A stretch of 64,000 nucleotides of DNA from a virus: the IMG/VR virus record IMGVR_UViG_3300034117_000713, positions 87,089 through 151,088 of that record; one strand, written 5' to 3'. The notes below the pieces were generated by a model. That model did not search any database, was not told the DNA's origin, and was given only the letters and a program-made list of their open reading frames with translations. This document shows positions 13,509-57,472 of the stretch, in pieces (position 1 is the stretch's first letter; each line of letters opens with the position of its first letter). Made by a program: the position numbers and the translations under genes.

Positions 13509-18895
<5,387 letters not shown>

Positions 18896-44763: not shown

Positions 44764-45944
44764 TTATAATAGACAAAGATAAAGTACAGTCAGTTACATG
44801 GAAGGATAATCCTGCCACGTATGATCAACGACTGCATCAACTAGGTCAGGGCTTTGATGAATTTATTATTGTTAATCCTATATTTGATGATTGGATACTA
44901 GACTATATCAATACTGACTTATCAGCAGATCATTGTATAATGTGGGTTAAGAAGGACAAATGGATTGCTAAAAAATTTAAAGGAACCTGGACTCCTGCTG
45001 ACGGCTGGCAGGTAATTGAGTGCGACTTTAAAGTCGCAAAGGTAAATGAGTTCGATCTAGTAGAAGAGTTTAATCCTGACATCCCCGCCAACTTGTTCAA
45101 ACCAATCACTCAATCAATTGAGCCAGAGGATTACAATTTAGAGCATGTGTGGTATCTAGATCCTAAGTACTTTGCTGGAGACAAAATTTGGGTTAAGAAG
45201 ATACGTGCATGTGAACACCCTTTAGATATTAAAGACATGGGATATGTTACTCCTGAAATTGTCGATGAACTAGACGTTATCTTTATCAGTTACGATGAAC
45301 CTAACGCAGACAGCAATTGGAATAAGGTATTAAGTCGAGTACCATTTGCCCAACGAGTACACGGAGTTAAAGGAATATTTGAAGCACACAAAGCAGCAGC
45401 CAAATTAGCACAGACAGATATGTTTTGGGTAGTAGATGGTGATGCAACATTATTAGATGATTGGTCCTTTGATTACCAGCCAAATATATTCAATAGGAAT
45501 TGCATACATGTCTGGCCTAGCCGCAACGCAGTTAATGGTTTAGAATACGGATATGGTGGCGTAAAATTATTCCCTAGACAACTATTACTAGATGCACAGA
45601 CTTGGAATGTTGATCTAACCACTGGACTAGGTACTAAGTTAAAAGTAATGAAACAGGTTAGTAACGTTACTGCATTTAATACAGATCCTTTTAGCACATG
45701 GCGTAGTGCGTTTAGGGAATGTGCTAAACTAGCTGCCGGAACTATTAAGAATCAGATAGACGACGAGACTACCTATCGATTAGATATTTGGTGCAACACA
45801 GCATTAGGGGATTTTAGTCAATATGCTGTTCTCGGAGCGGTTGCTGGAAAACAATACGGGGAAGAGAATAAATCAAACTCTTCTGCACTAAGATTAATAA
45901 ATGACCGTGTATGGTTAAAAGAGAAATTTAATGAACAAATTTGA
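44760..45944 (+). CDS. glycosyltransferase-like protein with extra N-terminal domain
   Basis: 394 residues. The C-terminal part (from about 170: VIFISYDEPNADSNW, RVHGVKGIFEAHKAA, FWVVDGDATLLD) copies the previous protein. The first 165 residues are an added domain (IIIDKDKVQSVTWKDNP...). The D-G-D replaces D-A-D, which still allows metal binding. Overlaps by 4 bp upstream and 14 bp downstream. Confidence 0.7.
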   Translation: MIIIDKDKVQSVTWKDNPATYDQRLHQLGQGFDEFIIVNPIFDDWILDYINTDLSADHCIMWVKKDKWIAKKFKGTWTPADGWQVIECDFKVAKVNEFDLVEEFNPDIPANLFKPITQSIEPEDYNLEHVWYLDPKYFAGDKIWVKKIRACEHPLDIKDMGYVTPEIVDELDVIFISYDEPNADSNWNKVLSRVPFAQRVHGVKGIFEAHKAAAKLAQTDMFWVVDGDATLLDDWSFDYQPNIFNRNCIHVWPSRNAVNGLEYGYGGVKLFPRQLLLDAQTWNVDLTTGLGTKLKVMKQVSNVTAFNTDPFSTWRSAFRECAKLAAGTIKNQIDDETTYRLDIWCNTALGDFSQYAVLGAVAGKQYGEENKSNSSALRLINDRVWLKEKFNEQI

Positions 45945-47250
45945 AAAAGATATAGAACAGATAATGCCTACCTTCTGTGCCATACCATTCGTTAGTATGG
46001 TGGTTAATACAGACGCAACTGTGCAACCTTGTTGTATGATGCAACGCAATACACACAGGCTAAAAGATGTTAACGGAAAAGTTCTCACAATAAATGAAAA
46101 ATTATCTGATTCTTGGAATTCTAATGAAATGAAATTCATCAGAACAGAAATGGTATCAGGTAATAAACTAGTAGGATGTAAAGTTTGTTACTTGCAAGAA
46201 AGTAGTGGACGGACCAGCAATCGACAATATGCTAATTCTGAATGGAGTAATAAATTAGGCAGCAAGCATATGTTTGACCTAATTGACAAAGCAGTGTTGA
46301 ACGGTGGCGAACTTGATTATAGTCTTGCTTATCTAGATTTGCGATTAGGAAACTTATGTAATTTAAAATGCAGAATGTGTAGCCCTTTTAATAGCAGTCA
46401 AATTGCAAAAGAGCACATGGAATTAGAAAAGAAAGACGAAGCTTATAAAGTAGTTTGGGCAAAGACATTTGGTAGATTTGACAGCAGAATTAATGATGTT
46501 CAATCGTGGTTTGAAAGAGACTTTTTATGGGATCAAATCATTGACCTAATTCCTTCCTTAAAGAAAGTATATATGACAGGCGGAGAACCTACGCTAATTC
46601 AAAATAACTTTAAGTTCATGAATGAATGTATACGTAAAGGCCGTAGAGATATTGTACTGTTTTTTAACACTAACTGCACTAACGTAAACAAGAAGTTTAC
46701 CAGTTTAATTGGGCAGTTTGGCAGAGTTAATATCAATGCCAGTGTTGATGGTGTGGGTGCAGTTAACGATTACATTAGGAGTCCTAGTCATTGGGAACAG
46801 ATAAGTGCAAACGTAGAAACTTTGGCACAGATGCCTAATGTACATTTGGGATTAACACCTACAGTTCAGGTATATAATGTGTTTAATCTTGTTGACACAC
46901 TAAAATGGGTTGATACACTCAACACCAAATACAGGAAAAATATATTTGTTGACTTTTTAATTAATGTGCATCCTTCACATTTGTCTGTAACAATATTGCC
47001 AGATGAAATTAGAAATAAAGTAGCTAATGATCTAATAGAATACAAAAATACACATTTGACCAGTAGCAGTCCAGAGCTAACTGTTAACAGTGTAAACGGT
47101 ATTATTGGCTTATTGCAAAAGCCTAGGGCAGCAGATTGGCAAGAACAATTAGCACGATTCAAAATTTATACGCACTCGCTAGATGTTGAAAGAAGTCAAA
47201 GTCTTAGATCTATCAGTGCAGAATTAGCGGATTTAATAAATGAAGAGTAA
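45931..47250 (+). CDS. radical SAM/SPASM-type protein
   Basis: 439 residues. An N-terminal FCAIPF...VQPCC segment (about 16-38) and a distal Cys pair (CKVCYLQES, about 83-91) resemble an auxiliary cluster site. The radical SAM motif CNLKCRMC lies at about 144-151, and the GGEPTL segment at about 217-222. Such twitch/SPASM enzymes modify peptides or sugars. Tandem with a paralogue (11-bp overlap). Confidence 0.82.
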   Translation: MNKFEKDIEQIMPTFCAIPFVSMVVNTDATVQPCCMMQRNTHRLKDVNGKVLTINEKLSDSWNSNEMKFIRTEMVSGNKLVGCKVCYLQESSGRTSNRQYANSEWSNKLGSKHMFDLIDKAVLNGGELDYSLAYLDLRLGNLCNLKCRMCSPFNSSQIAKEHMELEKKDEAYKVVWAKTFGRFDSRINDVQSWFERDFLWDQIIDLIPSLKKVYMTGGEPTLIQNNFKFMNECIRKGRRDIVLFFNTNCTNVNKKFTSLIGQFGRVNINASVDGVGAVNDYIRSPSHWEQISANVETLAQMPNVHLGLTPTVQVYNVFNLVDTLKWVDTLNTKYRKNIFVDFLINVHPSHLSVTILPDEIRNKVANDLIEYKNTHLTSSSPELTVNSVNGIIGLLQKPRAADWQEQLARFKIYTHSLDVERSQSLRSISAELADLINEE

Positions 47251-48475
47251 AACATTCTGTATCTTACCGTGGACACATATTGCTACCTACACAGATGGTA
47301 GTGCATTATTGTGCTGTGTATCCGGAAGTGAACATAACCTAAACCTAAACAACATGTCTTTGCAAGAAGTTTGGAATAGTGATCACTTTAAATCAGCAAG
47401 AAAAAATATGCTACAAGGCCTACCTGTTAAAAACTGTTCTGCCTGTTATAAAGAAGAACAGGTAGGCATACACAGTCATAGGCAGATTGAAAATCATATA
47501 TGGAAAGGTAAGTTAGGCGAAGACTATATTGATGAACTAGTTGCCAGTACTAATGAAGACGGGTCACTAGATACTGATTGGATCACTTTAGATCTAAGAC
47601 TAGGTAATACCTGTAACCTGCAATGTGTGATGTGTCGACCTATTGATTCTAGTAAATGGGTCAAACATGCAACTATTTTAAAACAAGAACTTAAGACAGA
47701 AGCCAAGTGGGATTGGAAACATAAAGTTGACAACTACTCTACAAACAACTTTGAATGGTATAAAGACGATAAGTTCTTAGAAGACTTTTATAATTCTGCA
47801 ACAGATATCAAACATATTATATTTGGCGGCGGAGAACCTTTATACATTAAAGAGCACAAGGAGATACTGACTAAGTTAGTAGAATCTGGTGCAAGCAAGA
47901 ATATTGACCTACGATATCATACCAATGGTACAATCTACGATAAAGAAGTTGTTGAACTATGGACTAAGTTTAAGTATGTTGACGTTATGATCAGTATCGA
48001 CGGCGGCAAGGAGATTAACGATTATATTAGATACCCTGCCGACTGGGATACCATTGAACGTAACCTACATTTGTACGACACTACTCCTGCTAATATTGAT
48101 ATTAAAATACTATGCACAGTGCAGGCCTTAAACATTTACTATCTGCCTGAGTTTGCAGATTGGTTGCTGATGCAGAACTATAAAAAGATCAGTAAGCCTA
48201 GACTGGATGGCATCTTTCATACCGGCACTCTACATTATCCTCAATACCTCTGCACTAAAGTATTACCCAAACACACAAAGGACAAAGTTGCCGAAAAGAT
48301 ATATCGCTATGCAGAACAGCATACAGATAATCCCGCTATTCAACGACTAAAGAAAATGATAGACTTTATGAATAGTGAAGACTGGAGCAGTAAGTTAGAT
48401 CAAACTGTTGAATACATTGATAAGTTAGATACTTTACGTTCTACCAACAGCGAGTTTTTCAAGAAGTTACTATGA
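47240..48475 (+). CDS. radical SAM/SPASM-type protein (paralogue)
   Basis: 411 residues with the same order: FCILPWTHIATYTDGSALLC (about 5-24), a Cys pair in NCSACYKEEQ (about 73-82), radical SAM motif CNLQCVMC (about 128-135) and FGGGEPLY (about 194-201). It may act sequentially with, or as a dimer of, the upstream enzyme. Starts inside the upstream gene. Confidence 0.82.
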   Translation: MKSKTFCILPWTHIATYTDGSALLCCVSGSEHNLNLNNMSLQEVWNSDHFKSARKNMLQGLPVKNCSACYKEEQVGIHSHRQIENHIWKGKLGEDYIDELVASTNEDGSLDTDWITLDLRLGNTCNLQCVMCRPIDSSKWVKHATILKQELKTEAKWDWKHKVDNYSTNNFEWYKDDKFLEDFYNSATDIKHIIFGGGEPLYIKEHKEILTKLVESGASKNIDLRYHTNGTIYDKEVVELWTKFKYVDVMISIDGGKEINDYIRYPADWDTIERNLHLYDTTPANIDIKILCTVQALNIYYLPEFADWLLMQNYKKISKPRLDGIFHTGTLHYPQYLCTKVLPKHTKDKVAEKIYRYAEQHTDNPAIQRLKKMIDFMNSEDWSSKLDQTVEYIDKLDTLRSTNSEFFKKLL

Positions 48476-49422
48476 AAGATACATTTTTAGAAGTTAAGAT
48501 CAAAGATAAGTTTGATCAATATCATTATATAACATACAAAGTTCAGAAATCACACCTCGCTGCTCGATGGGTAGGCTTGACTAAATTAAATCTAAAAAAT
48601 CCTAGACATGCATTTACCAGTTCATTCAATAATAGGACAGCATTAGATGTTCCTGAAATAACCCAACAGATTAATCATATTGTTTTAAAGATAAATCAAC
48701 TTTATGATAAGGTACTGCCTACTTACGAAGTAATTGATAATCCCAAGTTAAACTATCTTCACGAAGAATTTGAAATATTTGGAGAACGATATGACGAGCT
48801 AAAGTTGTCTAATAAGTTTAGCTATGAACTTGAGGATCGTTTCTTTGCGTTAAATGAACATATTCACATGTGTGAAGATGCTATGGTTACTGAACCCGGT
48901 ACATGGGGAGGTTTTGGTATTTTATATGATATACAACCTCTTGGCCTACACCTTTCTATAATGGAAATGGATAAGTTATTACTTGAAACTGGATTTTCTT
49001 GGGGACGATTATATTTAGGTTATAATACATTAGGTAAAGATTGGCTAGCTGTGGCTAAGGACAATGATGTAGAAGTAATTGTAAGAGATATGGTCAAGCC
49101 CCAGAAACGATTTGCCGCCGAAACCTGGCTAAACTTTAATATCGACCAAGAAGAGCAGAATAGAGTATCTTCGTTTATTAATTGGTGTAATGCACTGCCA
49201 TTTGATATACGAAAGAAAGTACCTTTCAACAACTTAAATCAATTAACACTAGGACGATTTCCTATAGGTGATATTGTTATTAACGATACATTTTTAAAGA
49301 TTGATCCTAATCCTGATCACTGGAAAACTTATAGACACGACTGTAAACTACAATGGAATCATAAAGTACTAACTACATTTAGATCTGTTGAAGATATTAG
49401 AATATATGAACAAGACAATTGA
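48472..49422 (+). CDS. hypothetical protein
   Basis: A 316-residue protein. A central helical region (LNYLHEEFEIFGERYDELKL) and a C-terminal beta region (SWGRLYLGYNTLGKDWLAVA) are seen, with no named motif. Overlaps of 4 and 17 bp tie it to the radical SAM and hydroxylase-like genes, so it is likely part of the same pathway. Confidence 0.7.
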   Translation: MKDTFLEVKIKDKFDQYHYITYKVQKSHLAARWVGLTKLNLKNPRHAFTSSFNNRTALDVPEITQQINHIVLKINQLYDKVLPTYEVIDNPKLNYLHEEFEIFGERYDELKLSNKFSYELEDRFFALNEHIHMCEDAMVTEPGTWGGFGILYDIQPLGLHLSIMEMDKLLLETGFSWGRLYLGYNTLGKDWLAVAKDNDVEVIVRDMVKPQKRFAAETWLNFNIDQEEQNRVSSFINWCNALPFDIRKKVPFNNLNQLTLGRFPIGDIVINDTFLKIDPNPDHWKTYRHDCKLQWNHKVLTTFRSVEDIRIYEQDN

Positions 49423-50074
49423 AACATTTTTGTTAGAGCACGAGCACAAGGTATGGATGCCAACCGAGTTTCCAAATAATTTATGGAACAGTGATTGGCC
49501 GTGGGCACCTGTATCGGTATCGGTAGATCAAACAAAGATTGCTAACGAGTTAACTAAGATAGAACATTTTTTTGTTCCGCATAGAGATAAAGATAAGATT
49601 AATAGTTACGGACATGAAGGTTGGGCTGCATTAACTTTACACGGGTTAGACTACGACAAGACTGAAAACTACGACAGATATGGACACACAGATGAAAGCA
49701 AATATAGATGGACAGAAGTTTGTGACTACTGCCCTTATATTGTTAATCTAATAAGAACACTACCGTTTTCTAGTTACGGTCGAGTTAGAATAATGAGGCT
49801 ATCCGCAGGCGGATACATTATGCCACACGTAGACGGCCCTGGCAGAATATTTGGCCCTTTAAATTTTGCATTAACACAACCAGAAGGTTGTCGCTTTGTG
49901 TTTAAGGATATAGGAACAGTTCCATTTAAAGTTGGAAGAGGATTTATGTTAGATATAGGCAGAGAACATATAGTGGTTAATGATTCTAATGAAGACCGAT
50001 ATCATATTATTATTCATGGCAAGCCTACACTTGCTATAACTAACTTAATAAAAGAATCTATTAAACAGTTATGA
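49406..50074 (+). CDS. aspartyl/asparaginyl beta-hydroxylase-like protein
   Basis: A protein of 222 residues from the ATG at 49406. RVRIMRLSAGGYIMPHVDGP (about 127-146) contains the H-x-D metal pair. GPLNFALTQPEGCRFVFKD and GRGFMLDIGREHIVVND (distal His) follow in the order of the 2-oxoglutarate/Fe(II) beta-hydroxylase fold. It may hydroxylate a peptide or glycan. A second family member lies at 51972. Confidence 0.75.
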   Translation: MNKTIETFLLEHEHKVWMPTEFPNNLWNSDWPWAPVSVSVDQTKIANELTKIEHFFVPHRDKDKINSYGHEGWAALTLHGLDYDKTENYDRYGHTDESKYRWTEVCDYCPYIVNLIRTLPFSSYGRVRIMRLSAGGYIMPHVDGPGRIFGPLNFALTQPEGCRFVFKDIGTVPFKVGRGFMLDIGREHIVVNDSNEDRYHIIIHGKPTLAITNLIKESIKQL

Positions 50075-53725: not shown

Positions 53726-53755
53726 TTGACAGTGTTCTAGCCTTTGTGCTATAAT
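53726..53755 (+). promoter_or_regulatory. sigma-70 promoter of the cell-wall hydrolase
   Basis: TTGACA (53726-53731), 18 nt, TATAAT (53750-53755). A strong AAAGGAGG site follows. Confidence 0.82.
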
Positions 53756-54400: not shown

Positions 54401-54625
54401 ATGCGAGCATTTGAATTTATAACTGAGAAAACAGACCCTAAGGTGTGTCGTAGTCCTAAAAGACTAGGCAGGAGTGATCATAACTCTTGTGTTAGTCAAG
54501 GTCTACGTCCACACCAGTCTAAAGGGAAAGGCCACACTGATGGCCACGGAAACTATACCAAAGGCCGCAAAGCCAAGTCAGTGCATTACGGCGGGGCTGT
54601 AAAAGACTACGACGGTAAGTCTTGA
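54401..54625 (+). CDS. small basic protein with a capsid-targeting-like N-terminus
   Basis: A protein of 74 residues from the ATG at 54401. The start MRAFEFITE resembles the T4 capsid-targeting sequence (MKTYQEFIAE) of internal head proteins, which is cut after a Glu. The rest is very basic with Gly/His/Lys (HQSKGKGHTDGHGNYTKG), suited to packaging with DNA. A late element supports virion expression. Its end overlaps the ACP gene. Confidence 0.55.
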   Translation: MRAFEFITEKTDPKVCRSPKRLGRSDHNSCVSQGLRPHQSKGKGHTDGHGNYTKGRKAKSVHYGGAVKDYDGKS

Positions 54626-54870
54626 GCAGTTTCTTTTCTAATAAGGTCGGCTAGCACAGCCACTGCATCTCCAACTTTAGTGAACTTTATTAGCTCCCTA
54701 TCTTTAACTTCAATCTTGTAAGTATCTTCAATATTGATAACCATTTCAAAAATACTAAGACTATCAACTCCTAAGTCTTTTTCTAATTCGACATGATCTT
54801 CTAATCGTGATCGATCTATCAAGAATGACTTTGCCATAATGTCTTTGATTTGTTCTTCTAAATTTTCCAT
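54607..54870 (-). CDS. acyl carrier protein
   Basis: An 87-residue protein with the ACP core LEKDLGVDSLSIFEMVINIE, whose DSL Ser takes the 4'-phosphopantetheine arm. It may serve lipid or acyl-modification chemistry or compete with host ACP. It starts one base after the IscA-like gene stop, so the two are co-expressed. Confidence 0.88.
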   Translation of the reverse strand: MENLEEQIKDIMAKSFLIDRSRLEDHVELEKDLGVDSLSIFEMVINIEDTYKIEVKDRELIKFTKVGDAVAVLADLIRKETAQDLPS

Positions 54871-54871
54871 A

Positions 54872-55198
54872 TTATATCCTAAATGATTCTCCGCAACCGC
54901 AACGATCTCGTTCGTTTGGGTTTCTAAATTCAAATCCTTCGTTCAATCCGTTGCGTACATAGTCTACAGTCATATTCTGCACATATGGCAGATGTTTTTG
55001 ATCTACCAAAACTACAAAGTCTTTTTGTGCAAAGTTAATTACACCTACTTCGTGAATGTATTCGTCTACATATTCTAACACATAAGCTAGTCCAGAGCAA
55101 CCGGTTGTTTTTGTGCCTATTCTAATACCCTGTCCTTTCCCTCGTTTTTTTAGTTGATCAAGAATTTTCTTGCTCGCCGCTTCTGTTAGTGTTATCAT
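54872..55198 (-). CDS. IscA/HesB-family Fe-S assembly protein
   Basis: A 108-residue A-type Fe-S carrier. Three conserved Cys occur as TTGCSGLAY (about 31-39) and DRCGCGESF (about 98-106), with the expected ITLTEAASKKI start. It may supply clusters to the four radical SAM enzymes in this window. T4-like cyanophages also carry such genes. Confidence 0.9.
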   Translation of the reverse strand: MITLTEAASKKILDQLKKRGKGQGIRIGTKTTGCSGLAYVLEYVDEYIHEVGVINFAQKDFVVLVDQKHLPYVQNMTVDYVRNGLNEGFEFRNPNERDRCGCGESFRI

Positions 55199-55238: not shown

Positions 55239-56414
55239 ATGTCATTTAATAAATCAATAGCAACCAAATTTGGTAATTGGGCAGTAGGTACAGAAAAATT
55301 CAACGACAAGATAGATGCTGCAATTTACGCTACAACATCAAAGAAAGATATTACATTTGAGTTTAATAACACTGTGTGGGATACATTTGACAGGTCGCAT
55401 CTAGGAAAAATTAAACTAACAGATCTTTACAGACAACGAGCACAACAACTACGTGACAAATACGATTATTTGGTATTATATTATTCAGGCGGGGCAGATA
55501 GTTCTAATATACTAGATACATTTATTAAAAATAATATTAGATTAGATTGTGTTTACGTGCGTTGGCCATTTGATGTATTAAAAACTTCACTACATACCCC
55601 TAATAAGAAAGACAAGTCTGCATTCAATTTTAACAGTGAATGGGATTATGCAACCAAACCTAGATTAGAATGGTTAGCTAAAAATTATCCAGAAATTAAA
55701 ATAGAACTTAAAGGTGTAGAGGGCTTAACTGACGCTGATAAATTCAACGACGATTCTTTTGTAGGAGTAAACAATAGATACAGCCCTGTAAACATATTAC
55801 GCAAAGGCACTTATAGTGACTTTGAACGGAGTTGTATAGATAAGAATAAGTCTGTAGGGCAAATATCCGGTATTGATAAACCTATGTTAGCACAAAGCCC
55901 GCAAGGTGTTGTATCAATGAAGTTTGTTGACGACTTCTTGCATACATTAAATGTTACACCATTCAATCAGTTGGGGGTAGAATATTTTTATTGGAGTGCA
56001 GACTTACCAGAGCTAGCTTTTGAAATGGCCTACCAAGTATTTCAGTACTATAATCATAACCCGCGTGAACGATATCTAGTACCAGGTAGAGAATACTTAG
56101 CAATGTCAGCGGATATTAAACATGCCTGTAGAGAAAAGTTTTTTATGGACATTAAATCGGTGTGCTATCCTTATTGGGATAACGCAATATTCCAAACTGA
56201 AAAGCCTAGACATAGATTCGGAATTGACAAAGATTTTTGGTTCTTTAAATCTGATGAATTTCTTGACACTAGACAAGTATGGAACTACTATTATAAATCA
56301 AGATTAGATAGTATAGCTGACAAGTTTTGTGAGTTTGATCCGTTAGGCAATAAAACGGGAGTGGCACCTATATCAACTAAATCATTTACAATTGGACAAT
56401 GGATAAAAGAATGA
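55239..56414 (+). CDS. PP-loop ATP pyrophosphatase-like protein
   Basis: 391 residues. YDYLVLYYSGGADSSNILDT (about 75-94) is the SGGxDS PP-loop of asparagine-synthetase/ExsB-type enzymes that adenylate a carbonyl. The rest is helical with a YHNHNPRERYL-like region. It may form an amide or thiolate on a small substrate. It overlaps the binding-protein gene by 4 bp. Confidence 0.75.
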   Translation: MSFNKSIATKFGNWAVGTEKFNDKIDAAIYATTSKKDITFEFNNTVWDTFDRSHLGKIKLTDLYRQRAQQLRDKYDYLVLYYSGGADSSNILDTFIKNNIRLDCVYVRWPFDVLKTSLHTPNKKDKSAFNFNSEWDYATKPRLEWLAKNYPEIKIELKGVEGLTDADKFNDDSFVGVNNRYSPVNILRKGTYSDFERSCIDKNKSVGQISGIDKPMLAQSPQGVVSMKFVDDFLHTLNVTPFNQLGVEYFYWSADLPELAFEMAYQVFQYYNHNPRERYLVPGREYLAMSADIKHACREKFFMDIKSVCYPYWDNAIFQTEKPRHRFGIDKDFWFFKSDEFLDTRQVWNYYYKSRLDSIADKFCEFDPLGNKTGVAPISTKSFTIGQWIKE

Positions 56415-57193
56415 AACAAATTTTAAGTATATTTGCAGGATTGTTGTTAGCAACATCTGCATTGGCATTTCAACCTGCAAACACAGTCAAGGTTATTGTA
56501 CCTTTTCCTCCCGGTGGCGGCGTTGATATCACCTTTAGAAAAATCGAAAGATACGCACAGCAACAAGGTATTAATATGATACCAGAATATCAGCCAGGTG
56601 CCGAAGGTGTTGTCGGAATGAACTCTGCAATGACAGCCCACAAGGACGGCAACACTCTAATAGTAACAACCACCGAAGTAGCAGCATCTAAAGATAGTAC
56701 TGCCAAACGATTTAATTCTTTAACTGATTTTGAATATATTACAGGTATTCGTTCTAGTATATTTTATCTAGTATCAAATAACACTGATAAAAATGTGTTT
56801 GGATTTAACGCACCTACACAAAAAGAATTAATTCAGCAATATATTGAAGAACAAAAGATTAAAGACGCTTTACTTGTTCCGTATAAGAGCTCGGGTCAAA
56901 TGACTACGGATCTTCTCAACGGTACTATTTCTAAGATTATAGTGCCTGGAATAATTATCAACCAACAAGTTGACGCAGGTAAAGTCTTACTAATAAAAAG
57001 AATACCCAACCCTGGAGAGTTTATAGTTATTACACCTAGTGGTATTCCCAGTGAAGCAAAAAGATATTGGGATAACTTTTTTAAAGGTTATTTGACTAGT
57101 GAACAGGCAAAGAAAGATGCAGAAGCTGATCTAACTATACTTAGAACATTTAACTCTGAAAGAGTTAAAAATATTGTAGCAAAACAACTATGA
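56411..57193 (+). CDS. Bug/TctC-family periplasmic substrate-binding protein
   Basis: A protein of 260 residues from the ATG at 56411. A Sec signal peptide (MKQILSIFAGLLLATSALAF) is followed by VKVIVPFPPGGGVDITFR, the diagnostic Bug/TctC motif. TTTEVAASKDSTAK and LLVPYKSSGQMTTDLLNG follow in family order. In bacteria these bind carboxylates for tripartite transporters. In a phage it may enhance host nutrient capture. Such proteins are most abundant in betaproteobacteria. Confidence 0.88.
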   Translation: MKQILSIFAGLLLATSALAFQPANTVKVIVPFPPGGGVDITFRKIERYAQQQGINMIPEYQPGAEGVVGMNSAMTAHKDGNTLIVTTTEVAASKDSTAKRFNSLTDFEYITGIRSSIFYLVSNNTDKNVFGFNAPTQKELIQQYIEEQKIKDALLVPYKSSGQMTTDLLNGTISKIIVPGIIINQQVDAGKVLLIKRIPNPGEFIVITPSGIPSEAKRYWDNFFKGYLTSEQAKKDAEADLTILRTFNSERVKNIVAKQL

Positions 57194-57435
57194 AATACAT
57201 TGCACTCAAACACAAGACGATTAATCTAGGCGGAAAAGGCCAATTTGAAATTGACATAGGTGAGGACAGTGTTATTCTTGTTCCGGAAGAAGGTAGTAAG
57301 ATTTACTTACACTGGAAAACGGACGCAGGCAAGTTAGCGGCCACCTACACAATGACCTTTCCAACCAAAGTTGAGGGCAAAGTCACAATGATCAATGCAT
57401 TAGATAAACCCGCCTCAGTTCGGACAATTTGGTAA
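57190..57435 (+). CDS. small protein, unknown
   Basis: An 81-residue beta-rich protein (MKYIALKHKTINLGGKGQFE...) ending in SVRTIW. It overlaps the binding-protein gene by 4 bp. No family is recognised. Confidence 0.65.
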   Translation: MKYIALKHKTINLGGKGQFEIDIGEDSVILVPEEGSKIYLHWKTDAGKLAATYTMTFPTKVEGKVTMINALDKPASVRTIW

Positions 57436-57443
57436 AATCAGTG

Positions 57444-57472
57444 TTGACAAGCTGACCAAATGGCTGTATAAT
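57444..57472 (+). promoter_or_regulatory. consensus sigma-70 promoter (ligase operon)
   Basis: TTGACA (57444-57449), 17 nt, TATAAT (57467-57472). It drives the SWIM, ligase and IF-1 genes. Confidence 0.88.

Follow-up and report, generated by a model that had tools for sequence, protein, structure and literature searches.

Comparison of viral contigs demonstrated that a gene predicted to encode a TctC/Bug-type periplasmic solute-binding protein and a gene for a putative PP-loop enzyme form a pair that recurs, under selection, across many uncultured phages. The pair described here is located in the window, that is, the whole stretch of DNA that was analysed, which corresponds to the final 64 kb of an IMG/VR virus record of 151,088 bp. 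The same record encodes the T4 major capsid protein Gp23 (E 3e-95) as well as a large terminase (E 1e-17), and T4-type replication genes (single-strand binding protein, UvsX, helicase, primase and replicative helicase) are found in the window. Bacterial contamination was ruled out by these genes, which identify the record as that of a genuine large T4-like phage, and the statement of an earlier sequence-only reading that the binding protein is encoded by a phage was confirmed by Gp23 and the terminase. Elsewhere in the window, 14027-18892 on the minus strand encodes a 1621-aa collagen-like protein (Gly-x-x repeats) whose end resembles a chaperone and which probably serves as a tail fibre. The features of the pair are the following:

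55239-56414, plus strand: putative PP-loop protein of 391 aa (motif SGGADS), repeatedly paired with phage TctC genes
55485-55502, plus strand: nucleotide-binding motif SGGADS, residues 83-88
56399, plus strand: alternative upstream ATG of the TctC gene (open frame 56399-57193, 264 aa)
56411-57193, plus strand: TctC/Bug-type periplasmic solute-binding protein of 260 aa; its ATG overlaps the preceding stop as ATGA
56411-56467, plus strand: putative signal peptide MKQILSIFAGLLLATSALA, classical type by inspection
56501-56527, plus strand: PFPPGGGVD, motif of the first pincer loop; in solved TTT binding proteins it touches the proximal carboxylate (PMC5812351, PMC8556258)
56801-56827, plus strand: distal-pocket loop GFNAPTQKE at residues 135-143 (264-aa frame), the version seen in the phage clade, G-[FY]-[GN]-A-P-x-Q
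57190-57435, plus strand: 81-aa protein, last of the three coupled genes, its start overlapping the TctC stop as ATGA

The binding protein, its partner and their operon

Between the two possible starts of the TctC gene, the one at 56411 is likelier than that at 56399, because its ATG and the PP-loop stop share four bases (ATGA), and the same overlap is present at the inner ATG of a relative (L001, 77% identical), in which the three-gene arrangement is alike within a syntenic stretch of 12.8 kb. Since ATGA overlaps are found at both ends of the TctC gene, the PP-loop gene, the TctC gene and the gene for the 81-aa protein (85% identical in L001, dN/dS 0.09) form one coupled unit. The operon with a PP-loop protein that had been proposed is supported, the SGGADS-bearing neighbour being translationally coupled by overlap. 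No clear promoter of its own was found for the PP-loop/TctC unit, and a T4 late promoter before the operon was rejected, as TATAAATA occurs 3 times in the window, no more often than the 3.8 expected. The unit is flanked, at 53726-53755 and 57444-57472, by two sigma-70 promoters that match the consensus at 12/12 positions (TTGACA, 18 or 17 nt, TATAAT), and none of such strength was found for the unit itself. Divergent from it, an acyl-carrier-like gene overlaps a gene for an IscA/HesB-type Fe-S protein (PHROG 17776, E 6e-36) at 54607-55198 on the minus strand, a gene pair kept in L001. The region just upstream (45931-50074) encodes radical SAM proteins and, after them, an oxygenase of the Asp/Arg-hydroxylase type.

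As judged from profile matches and the predicted fold, the window protein is a diverged TctC/Bug-type solute-binding protein. Its match to Pfam TctC (PF03401; E 8.8e-6, 25.9 bits) falls just under the curated cut-off of 27, and 26 of 27 phage relatives match the same profile at E <= 0.1, the best at 7e-57. Bug/TctC proteins of the PDB were recovered by sequence with E-values of 1e-12 to 1e-3, and a PHROG search with the window TctC gave no match. The AlphaFold2 model (pLDDT 93, pTM 0.85) resembled TTT-type binding proteins in all 17 top-ranked PDB matches (BugE, terephthalate-binding proteins, BugD, AdpC, MatC, Bug27 and TctC; E 7e-18 to 1.5e-13, TM on query 0.68-0.81), with other periplasmic binding folds appearing first at 3e-8, behind all 17. 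The Pfam, PDB sequence and fold matches bear out the earlier assignment to the Bug/TctC family, and the N-terminus MKQILSIFAGLLLATSALA reads, by inspection, as the signal peptide that had been claimed.

In solved TTT proteins, two loops pincer one ligand carboxylate, the first with the motif PFxAGGxxD and the second with YKG (PMC5812351, PMC8556258). The VPFPPGGGVD motif pointed out in the sequence-only reading is present, PFPPGGGVD occupying residues 35-43 of the 264-aa frame with P in place of the A of P-F-x-A-G-G-x-x-D. In phage clade A, to which the window protein belongs, the first pincer retains G39 and G40 in 23/23 rows and D43 in 21/23, so that ligand-contact residues are not all mutated, and the second retains Tyr162 in all 23 and Lys163 in 21. 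As to the later family blocks, the second pincer is kept in the window protein as VPYK, whereas the Gly of YKG is replaced by Ser164 and two blocks of ~20 aa each are absent, the protein being ~60 aa shorter than its bacterial counterparts (260 vs ~320 aa). Gly is found at position 164 in 18/23 clade A rows and in 31/31 bacterial rows, and it is best described as a conserved, though not strictly defining, residue. The distal-pocket loop reads GSxGxGxxxH in bacterial TctC rows (His in 29/31), in contrast to the G[FY][GN]APxQ of clade A (Pro in 20/23, Gln in 19/23), where Pro183 is invariant. A pincer kept beside a remodelled specificity-determining side argues for a ligand that would be shared within clade A and would differ from known TTT ligands.

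The product of 55239-56414 is probably a PP-loop ATP pyrophosphatase that belongs to no matched family, as suggested by its motif and its modelled core. Across 25 relatives, S83, G85, D87, S88, R67, R72, E134, K214 and D231 are invariant. The window protein has no Pfam (above cut-off), NCBIfam or PHROG match, and only one of the 25 relatives weakly matched ATP_bind_3 (E 0.04). Searches by sequence for a PDB family returned chance-level matches only. The predicted model (pLDDT 90) was matched by Foldseek to LarE, TilS and GMP synthetase over ~155 residues with a probability of ~1.0, but with E-values of 0.004-0.02 and TM-scores of 0.2-0.35.

Recurrence, selection and ancestry of the pair

Relatives of the window TctC were collected by a scan for the pattern PFPPGGG-x-D together with profile scans of viral contigs, which yielded ~30 viral contigs with TctC-like genes. 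All-against-all comparison of their flanks revealed that the PP-loop family accompanies TctC in most of the TctC-bearing viral contigs. In total, 64 adjacent same-strand pairs were found (45 non-redundant), 30 of the latter with the PP-loop gene first and 15 in the reverse order, with gaps of -40 to +68 that are mostly overlaps of a few bases. The PP-loop family itself has at least 519 matches in viral contigs, and its profile matches all 24 viral records examined, one of them weakly (G008, E 2e-5). When the search was started from the PP-loop side, TctC adjoined in 43 of 78 loci, whereas 1000 shuffles of the TctC genes within the same stretches gave 10.7 on average and at most 21; these 78 are the best of the at least 519 matches, those most similar to the window PP-loop protein, so that the frequency does not describe the whole family. 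TctC was located somewhere in the stretch examined at 56 of the 78 loci and was lacking at about a quarter, and after clustering of the focal PP-loop genes at 90% identity a same-strand TctC neighbour was retained in 28/61 and a TctC in the stretch in 48/61. Two loci with the same flanks (L199 and L201) lack and carry TctC, respectively. The existence of PP-loop loci without TctC means that the enzyme cannot always need it.

The divergence of the two partners was also found to be correlated (Mantel r 0.73, 0/2000 permutations; 0.57 among distant pairs only), a correlation for which shared genome history could be an alternative source, and the nearest neighbours of the partners agreed in 18 of the 45 pairs. 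A counterpart of the pair in bacteria was sought and rejected, as none of 80 bacterial TctC neighbourhoods holds a PP-loop family gene, and the family was absent from all of 300 Burkholderiales genomes.

Relative to L001, the mature part of TctC evolves with a dN/dS of 0.09 (82% identity) and the PP-loop protein with 0.12 (63% identity), while the first 24 codons, which cover the putative signal peptide, show 1.25 and a nearby ligase is 95% identical. By these comparisons, the pair is kept functional yet diverges faster than the adjoining genes. With relatives in many phages and a dN/dS of 0.09 in its mature part, the gene is neither absent from related phages nor free of selection.

The phylogeny that had been suggested as a check placed most phage TctC proteins in phage-only clades. 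In a careful tree, where the 31 bacterial rows were taken from the nearest found in 84,980 genomes, two such clades were recovered (11 and 7 rows; support 100/98 and 100/99), which join each other outside the bacteria with 99/95 support. In a larger quick tree (58 phage and 31 bacterial rows), whose deep forks are weakly supported and made unsure by long branches, nearly all phage rows stayed apart, and a paired phage TctC (L143:9137-10099) grouped inside the bacterial rows, so that recruitment would have been repeated, with different TctC genes taken up at different times. The nearest bacterial sequences are betaproteobacterial, Polynucleobacter and its relatives first. A tblastn search of 50,697 deposited phage records gave no match to either the window TctC or its PP-loop partner.

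Several further arrangements were observed. On one contig (L040:2638-12503), a tandem of PP-loop/TctC/PP-loop/TctC precedes a second PP-loop-like family present in five copies, the modules making up a gene array, and three TctC-like genes are found on a 207-kb phage contig (L022:1403-6855). Where no TctC adjoins the PP-loop gene, its neighbour is often an ATP-grasp ligase or a further PP-loop-like protein; at L159 it is coupled to a TRAP-type DctP binding protein. Aspartyl hydroxylases, radical SAM, methyltransferase-like and sulfotransferase-like proteins recur around PP-loop genes. An unannotated phage record from human faeces carries a clade-B-like TctC (MT836965.1:13558-14343; 25% identity, E 2e-21).

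Transport partners, proposed function and alternatives

No TctA was found in the 151-kb record of the window phage, which would consequently depend on a host permease. Members of the family need not be encoded beside TctA or TctB, most Bug proteins being orphans, and TTT binding proteins lacking a neighbouring permease are normal (PMC5812351). Full-length TctA was identified in two of the 24 viral records with the PP-loop family, namely G013 (L157; E 1e-136) and G016 (L171; E 4e-84), and the two TctA proteins are only 24% identical, which suggests that they were acquired separately. In G013, a 56-kb contig classed as viral by IMG/VR and bearing tail-fibre-type genes, with no capsid or terminase gene in the part examined, the ORF before TctA is short and TctB-like (E 5e-4, below cut-off), and the contig also carries TctC and PP-loop genes together with a Gram-negative porin. 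Additionally, TctA, TctC and DctP occur together on a 168-kb contig (L215/G326) with Gp23 (E 5e-86), and in four other loci (L216-L219) TctA is followed by an overlapping TctC-like gene that matches the phage TctC profile (E 7e-11 to 1e-4). The PP-loop family is absent from four of the five TctA-bearing viral contigs examined (G326, G327, G328 and G329), and transport and the PP-loop enzyme are therefore separable.

Other transport genes were noticed on these contigs. At L215:5582-8405, a small membrane-like protein (in the TctB position, with no Pfam match), TctA and a TRAP-type DctP are encoded by overlapping genes, and the TctC of this phage lies on the strand opposite to the TctA/DctP run, so that TTT and TRAP parts are mixed in one phage. 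Porin_4 Gram-negative porin genes are found on viral contigs with TctC and PP-loop genes (L205:3092-4111 in G013; G018:175937-177034). A phage PstS (L209:534-1523; PHROG 5385, E 1e-63) is encoded on the G016 contig with TctA and PP-loop genes, adjoining secreted proteins that by eye resemble a curli-export lipoprotein. A 351-aa SBP-like gene after TctA in L206 was considered as a TctC and is not firmly tied to it (hhalign probability 25%), although the genes in L216-L219 that match the phage TctC profile are its counterparts.

The sequence-only reading had proposed uptake of a carboxylate or polyamine-like compound during infection. The uptake part is strengthened by phage TctA genes beside TctC-like genes, and a carboxylate is reasonable because known TTT ligands are mostly dicarboxylates (PMC5812351), whereas the polyamine part is unsupported. 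The recurrent pairing with the PP-loop gene suggests that the captured compound is processed, being more than simply eaten. On this basis, large T4-like phages may use the pair as a 'capture and activate' module, combining carboxylate capture, TctA-type import and PP-loop adenylation, an interpretation to which we give even chances. During infection, the phage binding protein would be exported, close around a small carboxylate and hand it over to a TctA-type permease, usually that of the host and in a few phages phage-encoded. With less certainty, the PP-loop enzyme would use ATP to adenylate that carboxylate, or a molecule made from it, and the adenylated product would be coupled to an amine or sulfur donor, giving a compound that the phage needs. 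We infer export, carboxylate binding, delivery to a TctA-type permease and use by the PP-loop enzyme, and the last is the weakest step, because PP-loop genes occur without TctC and TctA contigs occur without PP-loop genes.

A broader formulation, possible and more tentative, is that a phage-specific PP-loop adenylating family and phage-evolved TTT (sometimes TRAP) binding proteins, accompanied in some lineages by TctA and a porin, provide an envelope-spanning uptake and activation route for the phage's own use. If so, the compound might modify phage DNA, the virion or an envelope molecule.

Plain nutrient scavenging is a somewhat unlikely explanation, in which TctC, working with the host permease, would raise carbon or nitrogen uptake in the way that PstS raises that of phosphate, the PP-loop gene being merely a frequent neighbour in a busy auxiliary-gene region. 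It is consistent with the phages that have TctC or TctA and no PP-loop gene on the contig examined, with the commonness of PP-loop genes that lack TctC, and with the additional PstS of G016. Nevertheless, adjacency far above that of within-region shuffling (43 vs 10.7), gene overlaps in both orders and the correlated divergence of the partners speak against it. It is quite unlikely that the binding protein, by docking, blocks or misdirects a host sensor or TctA, with the result that carboxylate import continues or carboxylate sensing ceases in the host, while the phage makes no metabolic use of the compound. Such a role would have a precedent in the TctC homologue BctC, which acts in Bordetella signalling (PMC5812351), and would suit both the trimmed and altered pocket of the window lineage and the lack of an encoded permease in most phages, but it leaves the PP-loop partner unexplained, the ligand-contacting pincer residues stay conserved, and phages with their own TctA point to transport. 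A non-transport periplasmic use of the fold, such as excluding competing phages or binding a cell-envelope component, appears very unlikely: the two absent blocks and the altered distal pocket would be compatible with it, but the carboxylate pincer loop is conserved family-wide and TctA lies beside TctC-like genes in other phages. Finally, a recently captured host gene in decay, which the length below that of bacterial homologues and the score just below the Pfam cut-off might evoke, has next to no probability, since the frame is open and the protein belongs to a phage-only clade, and a pseudogene was ruled out by the dN/dS of 0.09 in the mature part and the closed, well-predicted fold.

Comparison with known systems

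The window TctC shares the two-domain fold of BugE (2dvz), AdpC (5oei), BugD (2f5x), Bug27 (2qpq) and TphC (7nds), with a TM-score of ~0.8 on the query. Bacterial TctC/Bug proteins likewise have a signal peptide, putative in the window protein, the PFxxGGxxD pincer loop, the YK of the second pincer and an orphan gene without adjoining permease, whereas the window protein differs in its ~60 missing residues, in Ser for the second-pincer Gly, in G[FY][GN]APxQ replacing GSxGxGxxxH, in the clade-invariant Pro at 183, in the pairing with a PP-loop gene and in being phage-encoded. Its partner shares the SGGxDS motif and probably the core fold (Foldseek probability reaching 1.0) with LarE, TilS, GMP synthetase, NAD synthetase, and asparagine and carbapenam synthetases, but TM-scores to these known PP-loop ATP pyrophosphatases are low and the remainder of the protein is dissimilar. 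A tctA domain has been reported on a SUP05 viral contig (PMC4164917), where a TTT component is likewise viral, but this is a permease domain match only, with no binding protein or PP-loop partner reported. The open-access literature held no report of the phage TctC clades or of the PP-loop pairing, an absence that is weak evidence as subscription papers and preprints lay outside the search.

Being phage-borne, under purifying selection and neither a virion nor a replication gene, the window TctC fits the description of a phage auxiliary metabolic gene. Phage-borne periplasmic binding proteins are already known in PstS, and phosphate is the main compound for which phage genes altering host uptake have been described. 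Phage PstS (PHROG 5385), a phosphate-binding auxiliary gene product, is likewise a phage-borne periplasmic binding protein presumed to use the host permease, but it belongs to another family and ligand class, and phage TctC is in a few phages accompanied by its own TctA. PstS is not known to have an enzyme partner of this kind. What matters most, and what the comparison with PstS drawn in the earlier reading overlooked, is that phage TctC recurs together with a phage-type PP-loop enzyme. A second transporter family, employed by many uncultured phages and tied to phage-type ATP-using enzymes with no assigned function, would show viruses directing the import and processing of particular organic acids, and the pairing offers a testable handle on a large unannotated PP-loop family, with its at least 519 viral matches, and on what these phages make during infection.
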